Origin: Nautilus pompilius
Taxonomy: Eukaryota; Mollusca; Cephalopoda; Nautilida; Nautilidae
DNA: 64,000 bases
Assembly: GCA_018389105.1 (NCBI GenBank)
Contig: JACATO010001085.1
Location: 372,001 to 436,000 of the forward strand
Reading direction: 5' to 3'
The position numbers and the translations under genes are program-made. Below, piece by piece: positions 3,101 through 56,096 of the stretch. Position 1 is the stretch's first letter. Every line of letters begins with the position of its first letter. Under the pieces are notes generated by a model that worked only from the letters and a program-made list of their open reading frames with translations, was not told the origin of the DNA and did not search any database.

Positions 3101-6100
3101 ACAAGGTGTATTTAATAAATAATCTTAGCTAGCATAAAATTAGAAAACCAAACAAAGGTGCTCGTAGCTTTCATCTACACTCATAACATTTTGAGGAACT
3201 GTATTGAGTTTTTAAATCACCTCAAACTAATCTTAGAGTAAGAATCAGAATTGTACCCTGCAGATGATAGCTATGTGACAGGTTTTTTTAATGCATTCCA
3301 TACCATGAGTTAGATAGGCAAAGGCAGGACATTAATCACAGGAGGCATCTACCGCAGCTCAGTTTGGTAGAAACCTTTATAACTAAAATATCCTCAGAAT
3401 AGATCATACATGTACTACTCAAATAAATATAGTATAGCAACTAGGATAGATAAAGTGTACATTGGCACTAAACCTAGTATTATCCTCCAATATGTAGTTC
3501 ATGAAGCTATCTCCTGGAGCAACCACCACTTTGCAGTTAGGGTTAGCATTAACAGTAAGGCAGATGGAAGCTAAACAACACAGTTCTGACTGAGTCAAAA
3601 TATGTGGAATTCCTGAAAAGCTTCTAGATTGATTGGAGAATGCAACAAAATAGGTTTACTGATTTACTAGAATGGTGGGATATAAATAAACAAAAGCTAA
3701 AGCAGATCAGCATAGAATACTGTCTAATCAAGAGTGTGCTTAAGCAAATTAATTAATTTGGCCTTAAGTGAGACTTTAAACTAGAATTTAACCAGGAAGC
3801 TTTATACTTTCCTAATTCAAAAGGGATTTATGCCATAAAAAATAGCTAATAAAATTAGAGAAAAATCAGAAGGTGCTAGAATTAGGACCAGGGTCCAGGC
3901 TATCAAAGAGAAAGAATGTAGCAAGGCCTCTGTTGATTACACAGGGTAACAACCAAAAAATCGTCAGGGGTTTCTCAGCTGATTTAGACTAATTTTGGTG
4001 TTCTGAGTCCGAATATCACATTGATTTTGCTCTATCAGGTCAACTTTTTAAGATACACAGCCATAGCCTACCTGACGAGCTATACATATGCTAATATCAG
4101 GGGTTTTGAGTTCAATCATATTTTCTTTGAAGAATATATCGAATAACAAAATTAACTTATTTCTCTAAATTAGCTGCATACGTGTATGTGTGATTGCAAG
4201 GTTACTTAATTAACCCTTTCGCGTCGGCACGTAGTAGATATGCAGTCTCCATTGTGAAATTTTTAATGCGCCGCTGTCAAAATAAACTCAACTCGACAAT
4301 TTCATCTCAGGCTACCGGCAAGAACAATAAGTCTCTGCCTTAGACATTCTAGTGGATTATTGTCTTGCGTCAGCACTGAATTATTGATTGATTCGGCACC
4401 CCGAAGAGTATACAAATCACTGCGCGTAATGAACAGACGCTTCCGCTGCTACCGATTGAATAGCCGACGCGAAAGGGTTTTAATAAGCCAATCAAATTGA
4501 TTCTAAATTTCATTGGCTGACAGTCAGCTGCATCCTGTTATTACATATTACATATATTTTTTTATATTTTTCAGGTTATTGATATGGCTTCGGCGTGACG
4601 GCCATGCAGGAATAATCCTGACGTTTTTTCTGCTACATCTGCGGGAATACACGCTGTCAGTGGACAGGAAGAACATCACAGGATTTGTGAAGGCGCCATA
4701 CCAGGCTTACTTTGAAGTCAAGCTGGGTGACCAAGATAAGTCCTGGGCACCGCACACGGTGTGCAAGATGTGCGTGGAATACCTCCGGCAGTGGACGAAG
4801 GGCGCAAAAACTTCACTGAAGTTTGGGATTCCGATGGTTTGGAGGGAGCCGTTTGACCATGCATCGGATTGTTACTTCTGCGCCATCAATACTACTGGCA
4901 TCAACCGGAAGAATCGGCACAGCCTCCAGTACCCCGACCTTCCATCTGCCCGCCATCCAGTTGCTCACTGCGAAGAAATTCCTGTACCAGCGTTCAGAGA
5001 GCTTCCTGACAGCGACGACGAGGCCACCACTACAGACGAGGGAGGAGATACAGAAGAGGAGTATGGTCCGCAGCCCTTTTCACAAGGTGAGCTTAATGAT
5101 CTGGTTCGGGATCTCAGCTTGTCGAAGACTTCCTCCGAGCTGTTGGCCTCCAGACTCAAAGAGAAAAATCTACTTGGCGAGGACGCGCGTATCACTTTCT
5201 TTCATAGAAGGCATGAGGACTACATGGGCTACTTCTGCCAGGAGGAAGACCTCGTGTACTGCCGAGATGTCGCCGGTCTTCTTGTTAAACTCGGCGCTCC
5301 TCAATACGATCCGAGAGATTGGCGACTCTTCATTGACAGCTGCAAGCGCTCTTTGAAGTGTGTGCTCCTCCACAACGGGAACCAGTTCGCCTCAATCCCT
5401 CTTTGCGCACTCCACAACTATCGAAGAGAAATATGAAGCAGTGAAGTACGTGCTCGACAAAATCCAATATGAGCAGCACCAATGGATCATCTGCGTCGAC
5501 CTCAAGATGGTGAACTTTCTACTTGGTCAGCAGTCCGGGTTCACAAAGTACCCATGCTTTATATGTATGTGGGACAGTCGAGACAGAGCCCAGCACTATG
5601 TAAAGAAAGGGTGGCCGGCGCGAGAGCAGTTAGTACCTGGGGCGAGAAACATCATAAACGAACCTCTTGTTGACCGGGAGAAGATATTGATCCCACCGCT
5701 ACACATGAAGCTTGGGTTAATGAAACAGTTCACGCGCGCTTTGGACAAGGATGGGAGGTGCTTCAACTACCTGTGCCGAGCCTTTCCTCGACTGACCATT
5801 GAGAAGCTGAAGGCCGGCATTTTCGATGGCCCACAGATACGGCAGCTCATCAAGGACACAGAGTTCCAAAACTCCATGAACACGCTAGAGTGCGCCGCCT
5901 GGAAATCGTTTGTGCAGGTGGTGAACAACTTCCTGGGGAACACGAAGGCAGCAAACCACGCCAGACTCATCAACAGCATGATAGAGGCCTTTCAAAAACT
6001 CGGGTGTTTGATGAGTATAAAGATGCACTTCCTATTCTCACACATGGAGAAGTTTCCTGAAAACCTTGGGGCGATGAGCGACGAGCAGGGAGAAAGGTTC

Positions 6101-9100
6101 CATCAGGACATGCGCCAAATGGAGGAGAGGTACCAGGGGAGGTGGGACGCAGTCATGATGGCGGATTACTGCTGGTCGCTGAAGAGAGACAACCCAGCAG
6201 CTGCTCACGCACGGGAATCGAAGAAACGCCGATTTATGCCGTGAACTCTGAAATTTTGTGTCACGTAACGTTCATTTAGAAGTATTATAATAAATATTAT
6301 TTTATTATTCTTATACTAATATTATGATAATTATGCTTATCAAATTTGATGGAGTAAATAAAAACTGAATGAATTTGGATACGTTGACTTTTATTTCTTG
6401 AGGAAAACGGAAAAAATCGTCAGGGGTTTCTCAGCTGATGATCCGCAGAAATTTGGTTTTTTTACGAAAAATCGATTTTTTAAAAAATTTCTGTTGCGAA
6501 AATCCTGACCTGATTAAGCAAAACCAAGGTCATTTTCGGACTCAGAGCATCAAAATTAGTCTAATTCAGCTGGAAAACCCTGGACGATTTTCAAAAATAT
6601 TTTTTTGTTACCCAGTGTTATAATCTAGCTATGTTGGTAGGCAAACTAATGACTAGCCCAAAGACTAAAGATGATCGCACTGTCACTAACAGAAGGCATC
6701 ATTAGAATGAAGTTCAGTATTATAAAGAGTCGTTCAGCTGTGTACAGACTTGTCTTGGTGCTCAGGAGAGTTTAGAAAGTAAACTAAACTCCCTAGATGT
6801 TGAGAACTGTAAAGAACCACTATCAGGGAATTAAATAATGATGAATCTCCACGGAGCAACAGTCTTATGCCAGAGTTCTAATTGGAATCCTTATAGCTAG
6901 CAATCTGACAAGAGTAGCTAATAGCATGTAAAAACAAGGAAAGGGTTCTCTCAGTTAGCTTGTATAGCACCAAACTCATCCTACTGCAAAGGTGATCAGG
7001 GTCTCTGGATAACTGGAGATCTATTAGTCTCCTAAACTATAAAATAATATTAATAGCTAAGGCATTGATGAATAGGCTAGCTAAAGTCATGAACAAGATC
7101 ATAAATGAAGACCAGACCTGCTTGGTTCAAGGATAAGAGAAATAATGCATAAGATAAACACAGAAAACTCTGAAGCAATTCTGCTAGCCATCGATCAGAC
7201 TAATGCTTTTAATAGGGTAAAATAGATTTTTTCTGTTCAGGACATTAAAACAATATAACTTAAGGGAAGATTTAATCTGGTAGATTAAGCTATGTTAAAT
7301 GGATATCCAGACAAAAATTAGTCAGAATAGTTTTGCGTCAACTTACTTTAAACTCACCAGAGGAATACAACAGAGCTACATTCTAATCTAAGCATCATAC
7401 TATATGTCCTGGTAGAAGCGATGGTGTTTTTGCATAATTCAGAAAGAGAAGAAAATTGTAGGGATTCTAATAACTGATAACTAAAAAACTAAAATATTAC
7501 AGTATGCAGATTACACTGCAGTTGTACTATTAAACCACCAAAGCTTGGATGGAGACTGTATTTTCTGTGCTTAAAGTCTACAAGAATGCATATGATTCCC
7601 AAATTAATCACTCCAAGACATAAGAAGCATACTTGGGATCTCTCCAAAGAATTCAACATCCTTCCAAAAGCCATGGAATTAAGTGGGTTAAAAACAAGAA
7701 ATTAAATTGTTGTTAAAAACAAAATTCTGGGTTTATTTTTTTCCCTATATAAAAAAAAATAAACATAGATAGGACAATTGACAAAAACCAATTCATGATA
7801 TAAACAGAAACTAAAGAAATGGCGAGTTCATAACCTTACTTATGTAGGTCAGGAAGCAGTAATCAATAACATAGTTATCCTCCAGATATAGTATAGGAGC
7901 AAAGTGATAGGAATGCCAGAACGGGTGCACACTTCCATAGAAACAGAGAGGTGATAAACTTTGTATGGCAAGAATGCAAACATCTGGCAAATAAACAGAT
8001 AGTAGTTCACCTTCCCCCAAGACATAGGAAGTTTAATCATAACAAACACAGCAAGCAAATTAGCGGCCTAAAAGTTAAAAGCTAGACTAAAGGAAATAGA
8101 ACCTAGTGTAGTACCGGAAAAATGGTAAATACCTTTTGCACAGAAAATAGCTAAGGCATTTAATACAGATAATGGAATAGTTGTCCAATGTAGTCAACTT
8201 AACATCTACCAAACAAAAAATAAAAATTTTAATAAATACCATAAAGATAATTTAACGGTAAATAATAAGAGAAAAATAACCCTTATCAGGAACGCGATTA
8301 AATTTAGGAACACATAAAACCCATAGAGTTTCACAATGAGACTTGTACCTCCACTTAGCTATAAACCTAGCCACTAAGCCCTATTACAAGGAAGTCTAGC
8401 AGGAATATCTCAATTGCAGCCCACTTCCTTGGTGTAACTTTTATAACAATGAAAAAAACTGTCATTTAGACTATTTTTTTTCTTTGTCGTTCACTGGAAA
8501 TCATCCACCATGTAATCCTTATGAAAGAAAATAAGTTCAAATGAAAACTTATAGACTTCCCGAAATACTTTCTTTGTGAAAGGCAGGAAAAACAGCTAAC
8601 CATGGCACCTTTCACTGCTTGCAGCAGAAAGTGCTCTTAGACCTAGTCCAAGTTTTGATTCAAGGAATAAACAGTTGCCAGCACAGACTTAATCTGTACC
8701 AATGCACTGTTGGATTCACTTCACACAGTAAAAAGAATTGCCTTTCAAACTTCCTGGTCTTCACTGCTCAGCAGGTTGCCTGGAATAGTCACAGGGCTTA
8801 GAGAACAACAAATCTACTCAAACCAAATTAAACATTTGAAATTTTGCAAGGTTTAGCTTATACAGATAATATGTGATCAATAATTTCAGTCAGAAAGACA
8901 AAAGGGACTTTCTGAACAGCTGGTTGATCAACAAAACTCTCACTCAGCCACCCGAATGGCCAGGACATAATTTTACATATTTAAGTGTTTTAATCAATGC
9001 CCTCACCTGTCTTGTATGTCAGACCTGTTGCAAATAAACTTCTTTTTTCAATAGCAGCCTGAGTCACATGACCCTTCCCAATAAGTAACTTATCAACCAG

Positions 9101-12100
9101 ACTCAGGCAGTGACTTTGTATTAACTATCAACAAATCTTCAATGGAGAAAGAGAAGGATGAGAACTATCTTTAGTAAAACTCATCAATATCTTGTTTTTC
9201 AGCTCAAAGGGAATACATGGAAAGTAAACTCTGACTCTGAGACAAGCCCATGGCAAATTGCACTTCTCCTGCCCCTCAGGTAAAAGTTAGATAAGATAAC
9301 CATTTATCTCATAGCCTTATATTATTTTCACAGGTGTAGGAGAAGACTCACTTATAAACAGCTATGATAGTCAAATGTGGAACCAACCTAGTTACACCTT
9401 ATACTCTCAAAACTTTATGCCACAGAAAGAAATATTCCAATATTGATTAAAAATACTAAAAAAAAGAAATCAAATTGTGGTATTGTTGCATTTATCTTAT
9501 TCACGGGTGCAAACATAGAGTTACTGGTTAACTAAAGTGCTTGTGAGAGCTGTTTAGATTGTTGCATTAAGCACCAAATGAGATTATCTTTTGATAACTA
9601 GGGCTGTGAAATCATACCCTAGCTTGAGAACTACTGGTACAACAGGGTTTTACTGGTAATAAACCAAGCCATTAGGCCAGCTTCAAGACACTTGAGATGT
9701 AGTGGTCTCTGGTGGTTAGTACACTTCCAATGAATGCCTTTATGGTTAAAAGAGCAGGCTAATGCCTATTTATCTTGGAACTCACTGTCATTGATTATGT
9801 CATGATAGGAGGCAGCCTGGGCAATAAAAGTAGTTCAGTTGAGTCCTTGGACTCTGTAAATAAAGTCATTAACATAGCATTGGTTTTGGTGACCAGTGGT
9901 GTGAAGTTGCTGTGTCAAACCACACATGGGAGATCCTATTCTAGTAGATTCAGGGGAAAATTTTATGGAGGGCCCTCTATCTGACAAGATGAGTGCCTGA
10001 TTGAGGTTATGGGATGAAATACTGCCAAACTGATGGGAAAGACACCTTTAGTTGGAACATGGAGAGCATTGGTTCCCAAAGGAACATGAATGCAAACTGA
10101 TCACTATTATGATGCAGTTGCAAGAAGGCAGCAGTCATGGCTACATCAGTGACAGTCAAAGCAGTTCAAGAGACACTGGTTTCTGTAACTTTCTAGTTGG
10201 TTTTAACCAAAATTTGATCATGCCATCCAGAATCCTCTGTTGAAGACATGTCTGTGAATTTAACAGTATGTTCTCAAACCAAAGCAACCAACATTGATCA
10301 GGAAGTTAGTCAATGTTTGCAAATCAAAGCCCCAAGTGGTTTGATTGAGGTAAAGACATTTTCTTTTCTTATCATACAGCACTATAAAAACTAAATCCTT
10401 TGTACTTTAGGACACGCATTGGTACATGCAGGGCATACTAGCCAGCTCAATGTTGTACTGATGAAATCATGAGCGGTGTGGAGATCTGCAGAGATGACTT
10501 AGCTGCGAACATGCTATCTAGAATTTTCCTAGAAATAAACAGCATGAGTTATGATCTTTGTGGCCTAAACCCAGTTACATGAGTAAAAGTATGAAGTCTG
10601 CTACTCAATGCTCTACTGGAGAACCATGTGAAGACCATAACAGCTTTCAAAGATGATAAATTACCTAGATTTCCCTTTCTTTCCAGACAAAACTCAGGGA
10701 AAATGACTATCACCAAGCCAATCCATAGATGCCTTCAGGGTACGGTGGATAGCATATTTTACAAAATGAATGTTCTGTATCATGAGCAACCCAGGATAAA
10801 TTCTTTCTGCCAGGAATGTAAGATGCAAGGACACAGCATTAACTCCTTTTTGGTGGTGGAAGTCAAAAAATAAGCTAGGAAAGTTGAAGTACCAATCAAA
10901 AAGCTACCCAAACCCAGACCTATGGGTGATAACGGAAAACAGTCAGAATCCAACTTATCCAATGGTATCTGGAAGATTGTCAGATGGAAAAAGAAGAGGA
11001 AGAAAAAGAGTGGTTCTGGAAAAATGGTGGCAATGACAGCATCCTCATCAAATACGCCAACCTCAGGAGTAAAGTCCAGAAAAGAAATACCTGCTTCCAA
11101 GGCAAATACAAGTGTAGAGCCAAAACTGAAGTAGTGGAAAACATAAGGATGAAATCCCCTTGTGTAAGGTCCCATTCCAAAGTCCCAGAAAAACCATCTG
11201 AGATGGAGTCTATCAAAGATGATGAACTCTCAGAAATTTCATCATTAACAGATGTAGGTTTGGTACCATCCTTCCTCATACCATATTTTTGACTATAAAT
11301 AATGTGCACAGACTTGTGCTTTATTAAATTTCCCAATGGATAAGATGTCATTAATTATATCTTTCTTAAATGTACAGGAAACCCTATGTAAATCCAACTT
11401 TGATTCAATCTCAGGAGATTTGGATAGACAAAAAAAAAATAATAGATGTCTCCTGTTTGCTAATGCTCTACTTCAAAAGCCATAAATAAGTAGTGATTAA
11501 ATTTGCCTGTAGAAAAGGTAAAAATCTCTTTAGTCTAGATACCACTGATTGTAAATGTGGTAGAGACATACAAGTTTATTCTAAAGGCCCAGCTCAAATA
11601 ACACATCCCTAAATTGATAACAACAAATTAACAATCTTAGTAAACATAAAGTTAAAAGGTAAAACACAGGTACTCACAGGCTTGATTCACACACCCAACA
11701 ATCAGAGGGAACATAAAGAGTTCTTTGATAACCTCAAGACTATTTCAGAATAAGAACTAAAAGCATAATAGTGTCATAATAGCAGAAAACTTTAACTGCA
11801 TCCACAACCATGGGCACAATAGAAAGGGGCCAGTTACTAATCATAAGACACATTTTTGCAGATAGGTGTAGCTGAAAAATTTATGCACAACACTTCAACT
11901 CATGGATGCCTTTAGAACTAAATATACTGAGGTTAAATTGTACACTCATTATTCAAAAAAGTACAATATAGCTACTAGGATAGATATGGTGTACCTTAAG
12001 GATATTACCCATGAGAGAGTGATCATTCTAATAGAGACAAAATATGCTAAAACAATCAACAACTTCTGGAAGTATTGGAAATACAAAAAAACTAGACTTA

Positions 12101-15100
12101 TGGACCTTATTTTATGGTGGAGACATACAGTATTGGAAATAATTATGGAAACACACACAGGATACACACAAATAATGAGTAACTGAAACTGACAGACCTA
12201 AATAATATACACATTTTCTGTAATACTGCACAATACAAAAACAAAATGTATACATTGTACAGTTCATTAGTATTTGGTATGTGAGCCCTTTACTTTATAT
12301 AGAGCATGTCACCTAATTTTTAGCCTTCCATACAGATTATCAATGAATAACTATGGTTCCAAATATCCTGTAGCATTTTCTACAATTCATCCATGGTGTT
12401 TGGTAGCCATTTGACTTTCTCAGTACCTATATAAACCCCATATAGCCACAATGATGTTCATATCAGGATTTTGTGCAGGCCAAAGCATCTTTCTTTGTGT
12501 TCGTCAGCCATTTTTGTTTCAGATAGTCTTTCATCACAATGGCTGTATGCTCAGGATCATTGTCATGTTGAAAAAGAAATCCCTATGCAATAAAATAAAT
12601 TCTTGAGGAAATGGCATGATGGACGAGAACCTGCCTTACCTGTCACCAGTCAGTATACCATTGATTTTATGAAAATTCCCAATACCCTTAATTGATATGC
12701 AGCCTTACACTTGTATTCATCCATCTCCATGCTTCACTATAGCTGTTGTACACTGACTGTTAAACAAATCCTCAGGCTGCCTTCAAACAAACTACCTTGA
12801 TTATCGCCAAACAGTTCAAACATGGACTTATCTGTAAAGAACACCTTTTTCCAACTTTGTCATCTCATTCTTTCATTTCTGCTTCTCTTTTCAGCCTTGT
12901 TGTTTGGTTGCCGCTATTTGACAAAGATTTTCAGGCAGCTACACATCCATTGAAAACAATTAACAATAATGCATGTTTTACTGTTCTTGAAGAAGCATTA
13001 ACACCCATACTTGCAGCTAGGTCATTCACAAAATCTCTACTGGCTCATTTTCTATCATGTAGAGGATATACCCCAAGGTACTTAACATCACATGTGGAGA
13101 ATTTGGGCTTTCTTCCTCAACCACAACTAGTTCCATGTATTCTTCTCAGAGTATTGCATACAGCTCCTTCTGAAACATGAAGTCAAGCAGCAATCTGCTG
13201 CCTGGAGTAGCCTTTACTAGCTAATAATTTGATTTCTATATGTTTGTCATGTGATATTTCCTTCCTGGAAACCATAGCATTCGCAACACATTTACCACAC
13301 TATAATGATATTGCTGCCTACACTTTTATAGTCTTGCAGGTGTGGCTGAATGCTTGCATGACAACCCATCAGTGCACTAAATCAACACATGACTGTACTA
13401 TAGAGTATTTCCTTTTTTACACTTGATATGCAATTCTATCACATGTTATTTGCATTTTATACCCAGTTTTTCCTCAGTTTCCATAATTATTTCCAATACA
13501 TATTGTAGGTAAAAGGAAGCTGAATAAAATCAATATAGAACACTGCCATGTGCAAAATGTATTTAGCCAGGTTAGAGTGCACTCCCGAATCTCAAATTTG
13601 AAAGCAGAGTTCCATAATATTTTGTGAGGTTCTCCAAACATAAAGATTTATGCCATTAAAACAGAGCTAGGAGACAAACATTTTAAAAAACCAGGGTACA
13701 GGCCATAAAGGATGATAGGTGTGGCTAAAGACAGAGGGACACCATCACAGAGATAGGGGATAAACTTAAGGTGGAAACTCAGTATTAGAAAGAACTATTC
13801 AGTAGCGAAGAGACATGTCCAATTGATCAGGACTAGTTACTAGATAGCTTAGAAGCAGAGCTTTGAAAAGGTCAACTAAACATCAAAGAAATAAAAAAAG
13901 TTACATAAAGGAAAAAGTCCAGGAAGTGAAAGCCTTATGCTGAAATTCTATAACAGATTTGGATACTTATGGGAAGCTAGCTATGCATTTGAAACAGGGG
14001 CCCTCTCTCCTAACCAGTGCTGAGCCACAATCATTGTACTTTATGAGAAGAGTGATACGAAATACTTGAATAATTGGAGGCCAATTTGTTTGTTAAAGTA
14101 CGCCTTATCAAACAGACTAATGAAAGTATTGGATAGGATAACAAATCAGGACCAGACCTGCTCGGTGCAAGGATAGTCCATACAGGACACCCCACCCCCA
14201 ACTGGTCAGAAAATTTTGCACAAAGTAAATACAAATACTCTGCTGCAGCCTTCCTAGTAATAGACTAGTCAAAGGCATTTTAAAGGGTATATCGGAGTTA
14301 TTTACTTGACACATAAAACTTTCAACTTTGAGAAAGACTCTATTAAAAGATAAAGCTATGCTATACCAACATGTAAACAAATATTAGTCAGACCAGCTAT
14401 GAATTTACATACACATTAAACCCTTCAGAGAAATATGACAAGGCTTTGGCTGCCCTCTAAGTGCTATACTTTACAAGTAGTATAAAATAAATTAATTCAA
14501 AATGCTAATGATGCAAAAATAGTAATATGTGACTCTGGCAGCAGCTCAAATAGGGAAGAAATAGTTGGTGCTGCAAAGGCTTTAAACCCTGTCATGACAG
14601 GATAGATGTTGGTGTGTGCAGGGCATACTAGCTGGAATGCTGCTGCGCCATTAACAGTATTATAAGTGTGTTCTATTTCTTCTAGATTTAGCATTTGTCA
14701 GCCGCCCACTAATCGTTTAACAACAACCTAAACAGATTTCATAAAAATAGCATAAAAGCATGAAGAAAGAGTAAACTTGGCCCTTACTAGGAATTCATGA
14801 AAAGTTAAGGACCATGCTAAACAATTAAGGTTTCGCAGTGAGACATTTATCATCATTTCTTAATTGAACATAAGAGTAAACTCCTGATACAAAATTGGAT
14901 GGCAAAGGCACCTAAACTCAGGATCTATACCTCGGCGCAACTTGTGAAAAAAAATGTTGAATTCACAACCATACATCAGATACACGTGGGAATGTAATTC
15001 ATGATGTCCTCCCCAGCATAAATGACAAATTCAACTCGAAACTAGTAAATTCACCTAAATGCCTATGTTATGGGAACCAGATGGCATGGTCGCCCTGCTG

Positions 15101-18100
15101 TCTTTGTCTGTCCACAGGTACAGGCAGCCTAAGACCTAGTCTAAAACTTGGCACAGTACATTACAAGTCATCTGTTCAGTAGCATTTTTGGCTTTTCAGC
15201 ATGAAACAATCAGTACCACCTTTTAAAACTTTTGATCTTTTCGGCTCAGCAAGCAATTTTAAGTAGCCACAGGGCCTTAGAGGATAGGAAATCTGCTCCA
15301 CCTGAATACATCTTTAAGAATATTTGCACGAGAATTTGCAAAATTACAATGAACTTTAGAACTCTAGTGCTATTGACTGAGGAGACTTTGTAATCAGCAA
15401 TGCACCAGGCCACATTAATTCCAACAATAAACTATTTCTGTATGTTTAATTACAGACTTACAAATCTGCAATTGGCCCAAGAACATCTGCTTCTTAGCAA
15501 CCAGGAGAATCATTTCTTTATATCATTTCAGAACAGAAGACACCAAACCAGACCAAACGGAAAACACTGTACAAAGACTCCTAGAGTCCCTCCTTCATTT
15601 TTTTCAATTGATAGGGAATATATGGAGAGAATACTGTTTCTGAGAAAAGCACTTGAGTTGGGTGGCCCAGAACCTAATAGGCAGCAAATTTTCACAGGGG
15701 TATGATAATCTCACTTATAAACAGTCAAGACAGCCAAACATGGAACCAATCTAGTTATAGCACAAACCACAGTTAGAACTATTTTAGTACTTAATAAAAA
15801 TCCTTTGCAACACTGCATTTAAAAATTAAAAAACGAGTATTTGTTTTAAAGGGAAACATTAAAAATGGTTAGAAATACAGTGGACAGTTATTGATAGGAT
15901 AGAGTGGACAGTTACAGACCCAGGTGAAGTCAAGTCTAAATGCAAACAAAAGTAAAGTTTCTTGGTTCTAGAGACAATTTCAAGTGCATGGAGATATTGT
16001 CCACAAGCAAGCTGAAGATCAACCAAGGATCACAACTCCAGCAGATAATTGTCTCCTCCTTCTGGCTCAGTAAAGCAAAACTTCAACATCAACCTAACTT
16101 GTATTTGATCTCACTCTGGCCAGAGGAAGGTTGGTAACAGCCCTTGAGCCGCCACCATAAACTGGTGCTGTGAACATGTTGTTTGGACTTACTGATGAAT
16201 GTGTAACACAAACAGCATAGATGGGGATTACTATGGTGATGGTCTGAACAAGAATTTTATTTGGTGGGCATATAGACCTGCATGTGTTTCAGGGAGGTAC
16301 TCTAACTGCAATGAGGTATAGGGATGAGATTCTGGATCCTGTCAGACCACACAGAAGTGCAATTGAAGATAATTAATTTTAATGGACAATAACACATGTG
16401 CATTTCCTATATGATATGGCCAGCGTGTTCTCTTGAGCTAAGTCTTATGAGGATGTTTTGGATGCTCTAGGAAGACGTTGCCTCCCTCCTATCCCTTCCA
16501 AGAACTGTAAACTCCTCTGATAAGACAATGGACTTTATTGCCCACTGCTCTCATTGAAAGGGTTATAAGTAACGTGCATTACGTTTTGCTGTCAAGGAAG
16601 GGGAAGCACAATTTTACATGAGTACTTCTAATTGATTTTTAATTGCCTTATTTATTCTAGAATTCCTTCTTGTTTCCTGATTTCATCCTGATTGTTTCCA
16701 TTTACACATCTAAATTTTTTTGTAATTTATTAGGTTGTTAGAAGTTTTATTGGTTTTTATATTATGTTAATTTGGGGTTCATTTTTTGCATGCCTGTGAA
16801 AGTGTATGTAGATAAGTTATCTATTGTTTTGTAGCATGTCCTTTGGCATACATTATGCAAAACCTACCTTTTTTAAAAATCATAAAATGGATGCTTGTTT
16901 CAGGGTTCTCAGTGAAGCATGATAGAAATGTTTTTCGTGCCATTTTGCTTCACAAATTCAAACCAGGCCACAAAGCGAGCGAGGCAACTTGTAATGTTAA
17001 GCAAGCATGAGATGAGGACACAGCAAATGAGTGCACAGTACAACAATGGTTTACAAAGATTCGATCGGACGATGTGAGCCTCGAAGATAAGGAACGTAGT
17101 GGATGTCCTTCCAGCTGTGATGCCGACTCTCTGAAAGCCTCGGTTGAAGCCGATCCAAGAAAAAGTGTGAGAAATTGCTGGAGAGCTTAACATAAGCACT
17201 GCAACTGTTTCCAGGCATCTTGACACAATCAGCAAAGTGAAAAATCTTGACAAGTGGGTGCCTCACGAGTTTAATGAACAACAACAAAATAGTCGATTGG
17301 AGATCTGCTCTTTGTTTGTCATAAGAAACCAAAACAACCCATTTCTTGACCAAATCATTACATGTGATGAAATTGGATCCTTTACCACAATCACAAATGA
17401 TCAGCACAATGGCTCAACAGAGACAAGGGGTCTAACCACATTCAAAAACCAAGCCTCAATCCAAGGAAGGTCATGGTCACTGTCTGGTGGACTGCAACTG
17501 GTGCCATCCACTATAACTTCTTACAACCTGGCAAAACCATCACAGCTGAAAGATACTGTAATGAATTAAACATTGTTCATCAGAAACTCTCCCAACGACA
17601 GCCAGCATTGGTGAATTGAAGAGGCCCAATCCTGCTCCACAACAATGCTTGTCCTCATATTGCAAAAGTGACTCTTCCGAAACCAAACAGGTTGCGGTAC
17701 AAAGTTCTCCATCACCCAGCCTATTCATTCACCAGGCCTTTCTCCCACAGACCACCACTTTTTCAAACACCTTGACAGCTTCCTCGATATGAAATCCTTC
17801 TCCAACCAAGCAGCAATTGAAACTGCCTTCCAACAGTTTATCGACTTTAGAAATCCAGATTTTTTTTAAAATGATATAAATGCACTTGTAACTTGTTGGC
17901 AGAAGTGTATTGATTGTAATAGAATTTACTTTGATTAATAAACTTCATGTTTAGCAACAATATGAAGTCTCATTATTGAGGTAAAAACCTACAAAACTTT
18001 TGTAACAACCTAATACATATTTATTCGATAAAAGTTGTTACATGAAGAGAAGTTTGTGTTGAATATTTGGTGAATTAAAGTTTCACAATTTGGAAATATT

Positions 18101-25855: not shown

Positions 25856-26291
25856 AGTATATAAAGTAGCAAGCAATCGAGGCTATTGTACTAGTAGAAG
25901 CAAACAAAGAAAAATTACTCGGTGTAACACTACAATATTTAAATAGCTGCTACACATCAAATAATAATTCTGGTATGAACTTTTGATTGCACTAAATTTT
26001 TTTAAAATATACATTTGTTGTGAAATCCGTCTTTTTCTGTGATCCCGCAAAACTCCTAAATGAACCTGTTGTTAGTTAGACTCTCTTTACTATGATTTCC
26101 ACATTAGTTGCAAGTTTACGTAATCGCAGCATTTTTTCCTGTCATTTCAATTTGTTTTCACAGCTTCGACAATTTTTTTGTTAAAAGCTTTCTATCTATT
26201 CAGTGATCACTATTTAAGCTCATAGACATTATTTAGCCTATGAACGAACACTAGGAAGAGTGGTTTCTAAAGATGTTTGGTCTACTTCCAG

Positions 26292-27005
26292 ATGAGTGTT
26301 TGCCGACTTGTTACCTTCGATGCGACCAACACATTGATCCGGGTTCTTGGAAATGTGGGAAAGCACTACGCTGATGCTGCCACTGCTTATGGACTCCATG
26401 CAAAAGCCTATGAGCTTGATCAGGCCTTCAAGGTCCAGTGGAAAGAGATGAACAAGAAATATCCTAATTTTGGATCTACACAAGGATTCTCTTCTCACAA
26501 GTGGTGGACCAATCTTGTCAGGAACTGTTTTAATTTCATTGGGTATGATCCAAATTCTAACATAGTAGCTGACATTGCTGATCATTTATATTTGCATTTC
26601 TCAACAGATCAAGGTTGGGAAGTTATTCCTGGTTCCAAGAAAGTCTTGGAGAACCTGAAGAAAATGGGACTGCTCATTGGAGTGATTTCCAACTATGATG
26701 AGCGTTTGGAGAAGGTGTTGCTGAGTTTAGCACTGAGACACTACTTTGATTTTATCATTGTTTCTGCAGTAGAAAAAGTTGCAAAACCCAATGAGGAAAT
26801 CTTCCAGCGGGCACTATGCAAAGCTGGTGTGAAACCCGCAGAAGCCATACATGTGGGAAATGACATTCTGAATGACTATTTAGGGGCTAGGCAAGCTGGG
26901 CTGATACCTCTTCTTCTTTCCTCAGAACAAAAGGCACTACACAAGGAAGTGGATTCTAAATTTGTTATAAGAGACATAAAAGAAATCTTCAGTTATATTA
27001 AATGA
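26292..27005 (+). CDS. HDHD3: HDHD3-like HAD-superfamily hydrolase
   Basis: A 237-residue protein of the haloacid dehalogenase superfamily, a soluble Rossmann-fold hydrolase whose physiological substrate is not known. Motif I is VTFDATNTL (nucleophile Asp kept; the usual second Asp is absent, as I also recall for human HDHD3). Motif II is GVISNYDERL, motif III the Lys in EKVAKPNEEIF, and motif IV HVGNDILNDYLGARQAG. GYDPNSN and QGFSSHKWW match the cap region. Full length for the family. The ATG follows a strong acceptor (CTACTTCCAG) directly, so the 5'UTR is probably spliced and the whole coding sequence lies in one exon. ATTAAA at 27035 is a likely poly(A) signal. Confidence 0.88.
   Translation: MSVCRLVTFDATNTLIRVLGNVGKHYADAATAYGLHAKAYELDQAFKVQWKEMNKKYPNFGSTQGFSSHKWWTNLVRNCFNFIGYDPNSNIVADIADHLYLHFSTDQGWEVIPGSKKVLENLKKMGLLIGVISNYDERLEKVLLSLALRHYFDFIIVSAVEKVAKPNEEIFQRALCKAGVKPAEAIHVGNDILNDYLGARQAGLIPLLLSSEQKALHKEVDSKFVIRDIKEIFSYIK

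Positions 27006-53251: not shown

Positions 53252-56096
<2,845 letters not shown>

Follow-up and report, generated by a model that had tools for sequence, protein, structure and literature searches.

What is the interval at positions 3940–6617 of this stretch of the Nautilus pompilius genome, and what does it reveal about the large, unnamed protein family to which its only recognised gene belongs? The stretch that we analysed, hereafter the window, is 64,000 nucleotides long (contig JACATO010001085.1, positions 372,001 to 436,000), and the interval spans 2678 bp between terminal inverted repeats (TIRs). We conclude, with a probability of roughly 0.92, that it is a decayed, once autonomous cut-and-paste DNA transposon of the Chapaev3 type, inserted in an older L1-like long interspersed element (LINE). 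The first-pass annotation of this DNA had proposed a CACTA-type transposon; it was right about the transposon and close to right in a CMC placement, whereas the features of Chapaev3 fit better than those of CACTA.

Ends, duplication and insertion site

The inverted repeats of ~115 bp and the TTA duplication that were initially described are real. When the 103-bp left repeat is aligned with the 112-bp right repeat, 89 positions are identical and the alignment score is 116. Shuffling the right end 500 times never gave more than 29, and 1000 random 2678-bp intervals taken from window position 7000 onward never gave more than 39. The ungapped core of the alignment is 93 nt long with 83% identity. 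The left end reads CACAGGGTAACAA at 3940, and the right end, reverse-complemented, reads CACTGGGTAACAA to 6617. The exact string CACNGGGTAACAA occurs in the window at the two element ends only; with up to two mismatches it occurs three times (the third carrying two mismatches), which is no more than the chance mean of 4.25, so that the pattern scan alone proves nothing. The junctions, A-TTA/CAC on the left and GTG/TTA-T on the right, constitute a 3-bp duplication from one insertion, and a 4-bp repeat is absent (ATTA vs TTAT).

The element most likely sits in a decayed L1-type LINE, because the right flank matches the LINE-1 protein ORF2p and pieces of both flanks match another LINE copy in the window. 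Translated with X at stop codons and compared with the solved structures of the Protein Data Bank (PDB), the right flank matches ORF2p twice (8c8j, E = 1.0e-4; 8uw3, residues 462–584, E = 1.8e-4) and the left flank has no match. Pfam yielded no LINE family for six open reading frame pieces of the flanks and their neighbours (one chance-level match, E = 0.028), and no family of any kind for both read-through flanks. The claimed insertion into a LINE is thus upheld by the ORF2p match and the second copy, but the accompanying statement that the LINE's frame resumes on the far side was loose: the frames in both flanks are riddled with stops, and the flanks are better described as one relic that continues. 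The second LINE copy, at window 11626–14175, matches pieces of both flanks in the same order and orientation; it was considered as a paralogous empty site and rejected, since ~1.2 kb of extra sequence lies between its matching pieces.

The transposase and its protein family

The element's sole recognised gene would have encoded a transposase of ~556 amino acids (aa), with a cysteine-rich, probably zinc-binding, N-terminal region and an RNase-H core like those of RAG1 and Transib. The single gene that had been claimed is present, and in this copy it is broken: its product is split over two frames, open at 4507–5433 (family-like from ~4630) and at 5357–6241, and the N-terminal CYIC segment lies out of frame, with the break near 4640. 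P0186, a 556-aa protein, is the closest relative with an intact frame; it shares 91% and 95% identity with the two window parts.

Searches with the window's C-terminal part and with P0186 returned 1762 and 1731 proteins, while a 14-sequence profile, scored against those candidates that share most words, returned 2938 clusters with E no higher than 1e-3. Names and hosts are taken from the 120 matches listed per search. Where names are given they read 'uncharacterized', 'hypothetical' or 'unnamed', with no transposon name; the exceptions are P0001, a Chionoecetes gene model that takes its name from a fused pyruvate dehydrogenase phosphatase subunit, and P0254, a record labelled as a bacterial metagenome-assembled genome, which we take for contamination. 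The hosts are crustaceans, insects, Hydra, tunicates, a leech, frogs and a lizard (Caligus, Penaeus, several insects, Hydra, Helobdella, Tachypleus, Clavelina, Rhineura, Ranitomeya and others), and identity within the family is about 50–60% between animal phyla. One pair stands out, P0189 from Hydra and P0141 from the worm lizard Rhineura, at 77% identity over 551 aa; this likeness is higher than we would expect from descent and fits the horizontal transfer of Chapaev3 in the published account (Zhang et al. 2014, PMC4079192).

Comparing homologues, as the first-pass annotation had suggested, shows which probable catalytic positions are conserved. Among 127 relatives of at least 530 aa, 104 are 550–575 aa long, all 127 keep the first aspartate (D255, in FIDSS), and 126 or 127 keep the C(2)C, LH and H(4)H motifs and the DDE residues, all of which are present in the window copy. 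The proposed DDE core of VDLK, CxxC, PPLHMKLG and GERFH stands as a DDE, RNase-H-like core by its conserved residues and predicted fold, with the correction that the first aspartate lies in FIDSS, which had not been listed, and that VDLK (D309) most likely supplies the second. The proposed CYIC/CKMC/CYFC zinc fold corresponds to conserved cysteine pairs near the N-terminus, which may bind zinc and DNA.

The predicted structure is a confident model with a core resembling that of RAG1, and it contains the RNase-H-like core for which a structure prediction had been proposed as a check. Its residues 165–556 align with RAG1, HzTransib, the P element and Hermes, at 10–14% sequence identity to RAG1 and HzTransib over the aligned part. 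The model supports an RNase-H-like DDE transposase and, together with the ends, a predicted role as the transposase of a CAC-ended, 3-bp-duplicating transposon akin to CACTA, Chapaev and Transib. Of 78 members compared with Pfam, 52 match zf-AD (best E = 3.5e-5) and 2 match the RAG1 N-terminal model PF12560, weakly and below the cut-off (best E = 0.011). If the element worked as RAG1 and Transib do, a dimer of its transposase would bind the ~105-bp inverted ends, cleave at the CAC termini, and insert the ends into an A(TWA)T target cut with a 3-bp stagger, which would leave the TTA duplication; the element was presumably mobile in the past.

Table 1. Positions in the window of the element's parts and of features within it
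Feature	Positions	Strand	Remarks
Target-site duplication, left copy	3937..3939	.	TTA, A before; from sequence
Left TIR	3940..4042	+	103 bp, starts CACAGGGTAACAA
Possible nested miniature inverted-repeat transposable element (MITE)	4210..4483	.	17-bp perfect inverted repeat (4212–4228 / 4463–4479), AACCCTTTCGCGTCGGC; TTAA near both sides; ends slightly asymmetrical; piggyBac-like in appearance
N-terminal transposase part	4630..5433	+	CKMC 4762, CYFC 4870, first catalytic Asp (FIDS) 5329; frame breaks near both ends
C-terminal transposase part	5402..6241	+	VDLK (second Asp, most likely) 5495, C(2)C 5555, LH 5699, H(4)H 6026, SDEQGERFHQD 6077
Subterminal direct copy	6411..6439	+	29/29 nt identical to left-end positions 3955–3983
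Right TIR	6506..6617	-	112 bp, terminates ...TTGTTACCCAGTG
Target-site duplication, right copy	6618..6620	.	TTA, T after; from sequence

Elsewhere in the window, an actin coding sequence on the minus strand (53255–54257) is split over two overlapping frames (Pfam Actin, E = 1.9e-82 and 3.8e-44) and is either a processed pseudogene or a frame error. A 244-aa open frame on the plus strand (26271–27002) encodes a haloacid-dehalogenase-like hydrolase (PF00702, E = 2.7e-21). Two plus-strand pieces, at 17171–17566 and 2428–2661, we take by motif to be mariner- and Tc1-like transposase fragments; Pfam gave no transposase match for them.

Placement among CAC-ended transposons

Chapaev3 was reportedly described by Kapitonov and Jurka in 2008. 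A class and an assumed mechanism thus probably exist already, and the proposal that this locus would give an orphan family a mechanism and a place in transposon classification probably does not hold; the family is probably classified, and unnamed only in protein annotation. A literature search with the TIR letters gave no related paper by title among the matches listed, and one with 'LGDQDKSW' and 'uncharacterized' gave no paper. Chapaev3, which stems from a 2008 Repbase report and carries the Chapa zinc domain of the RAG1 N-terminus (Kapitonov and Koonin 2015, PMC4411706), is distantly related to RAG1, the antibody-gene recombinase. The present placement ties a large protein family without transposon names to a known transposon group, which is of use for annotation clean-up and for choosing intact copies for tests, with little that is new in kind.

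Several points weigh against a Chapaev3 assignment. The element has no second DNA copy elsewhere in the window. There were no relatives among 73 pattern stretches in viral contigs or 59 in prokaryote genome contigs, and no match in phages and plasmids; none of these collections holds animal genomes, so that all are poor places to look and say nothing on the family's spread. In the structural comparison, the sole Foldseek match below 0.001 is the P-element transposase (1.3e-4), RAG1 ranks first only after the Foldseek candidates are realigned, and a sequence profile searched against the PDB gave two chance-level matches and not RAG1. The catalytic glutamate is either E504 or E507. The Chapaev3 elements Garfield and Merrow have two exons with a break after ~78 codons (PMC4079192), whereas the frame at 4630–5433 is open without an intron across that position; because most other Chapaev3 elements are apparently single-exon (PMC4079192), this speaks against Garfield and Merrow and not against Chapaev3. 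Full Garfield and Merrow elements are also shorter, at 2092–2455 bp (PMC4079192) against 2678 bp here, or ~2.4 kb here without the possible nested MITE of ~270 bp. Transposase length varies within Chapaev3 (Conan_ET has 461 aa; PMC4079192), so length is not a constant trait. Finally, the assignment is a match to published traits rather than a direct comparison with Chapaev3 sequences, and the motifs of Yuan and Wessler 2011 are taken as quoted in later papers.

This missing direct tie to a named Chapaev3 is what would favour a sister lineage, Chapaev3-like but outside Chapaev3, within the CMCT clade (CACTA, Mirage, Chapaev and Transib), in which several separate lineages are distinguished (Kojima 2025, PMC12730594). 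We consider it improbable, since the motif set, the A/T-flanked TWA target, the length and the overlapping hosts all coincide with Chapaev3. We give equally little credence to a CMCT lineage apart from Repbase Chapaev3 in which the N-terminal zinc region and the core both stayed RAG1-like and which spread horizontally between animal phyla, as the Hydra and worm-lizard pair might exemplify. A CACTA/EnSpm element proper is slightly less probable still: the CACTG right end and 3-bp duplication are consistent with it, and the C(2)C and H(3-4)H motifs are common to EnSpm and Chapaev (PMC12730594), but the Pfam listing for the 78 members, which shows 25 of 30 families, contains no EnSpm transposase domain, and it is for Chapaev3 that a TWA target flanked by A and T, the protein length of Garfield and Merrow and a RAG1-like N-terminus are reported (PMC4079192, PMC4411706). 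A domesticated host gene with chance flanking repeats, to which intact open frames elsewhere such as P0186 might point, is scarcely credible when TIRs and a duplication enclose the gene, this copy is broken, and the cluster P0238 holds 378 member sequences.

Among the known kin, HzTransib aligns with the predicted core. Duplications are 5 bp long in Transib and RAG-type transposons, ProtoRAG among them, and 4 bp long in Chapaev elements other than Chapaev3, and the 3-bp TTA here differs from both. By common motifs, EnSpm, Mirage, Chapaev and Transib are grouped together, with Chapaev3 as a sublineage of Chapaev (Kojima 2025, PMC12730594); CACTA/EnSpm has the CACT-type end, the 3-bp duplication and the C(2)C and H(3-4)H motifs in common with this element, which differs in its A(TWA)T target. 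In the published account, Chapaev TIRs generally have CAC/GTG ends and a 3 to 4 bp duplication, every Chapaev3 element examined there has duplicated TWA with A before and T after, and Chapaev3 transposases carry C(2)C, LH and H(4)H (PMC4079192); the element has the same ends and motifs and, at its one insertion, the same A/T-flanked duplication (A-TTA / TTA-T). The transposases of Garfield (78 + 478 = 556 aa) and Merrow (78 + 484 = 562 aa; PMC4079192) equal and nearly equal, respectively, the 556 aa of P0186. The animal hosts overlap as well: the legend of the Chapaev3 tree lists Hydra and Helobdella (PMC4079192), where family members occur, and the Caligus genome has 7607 CMC-Chapaev-3 repeats (PMC7878743).
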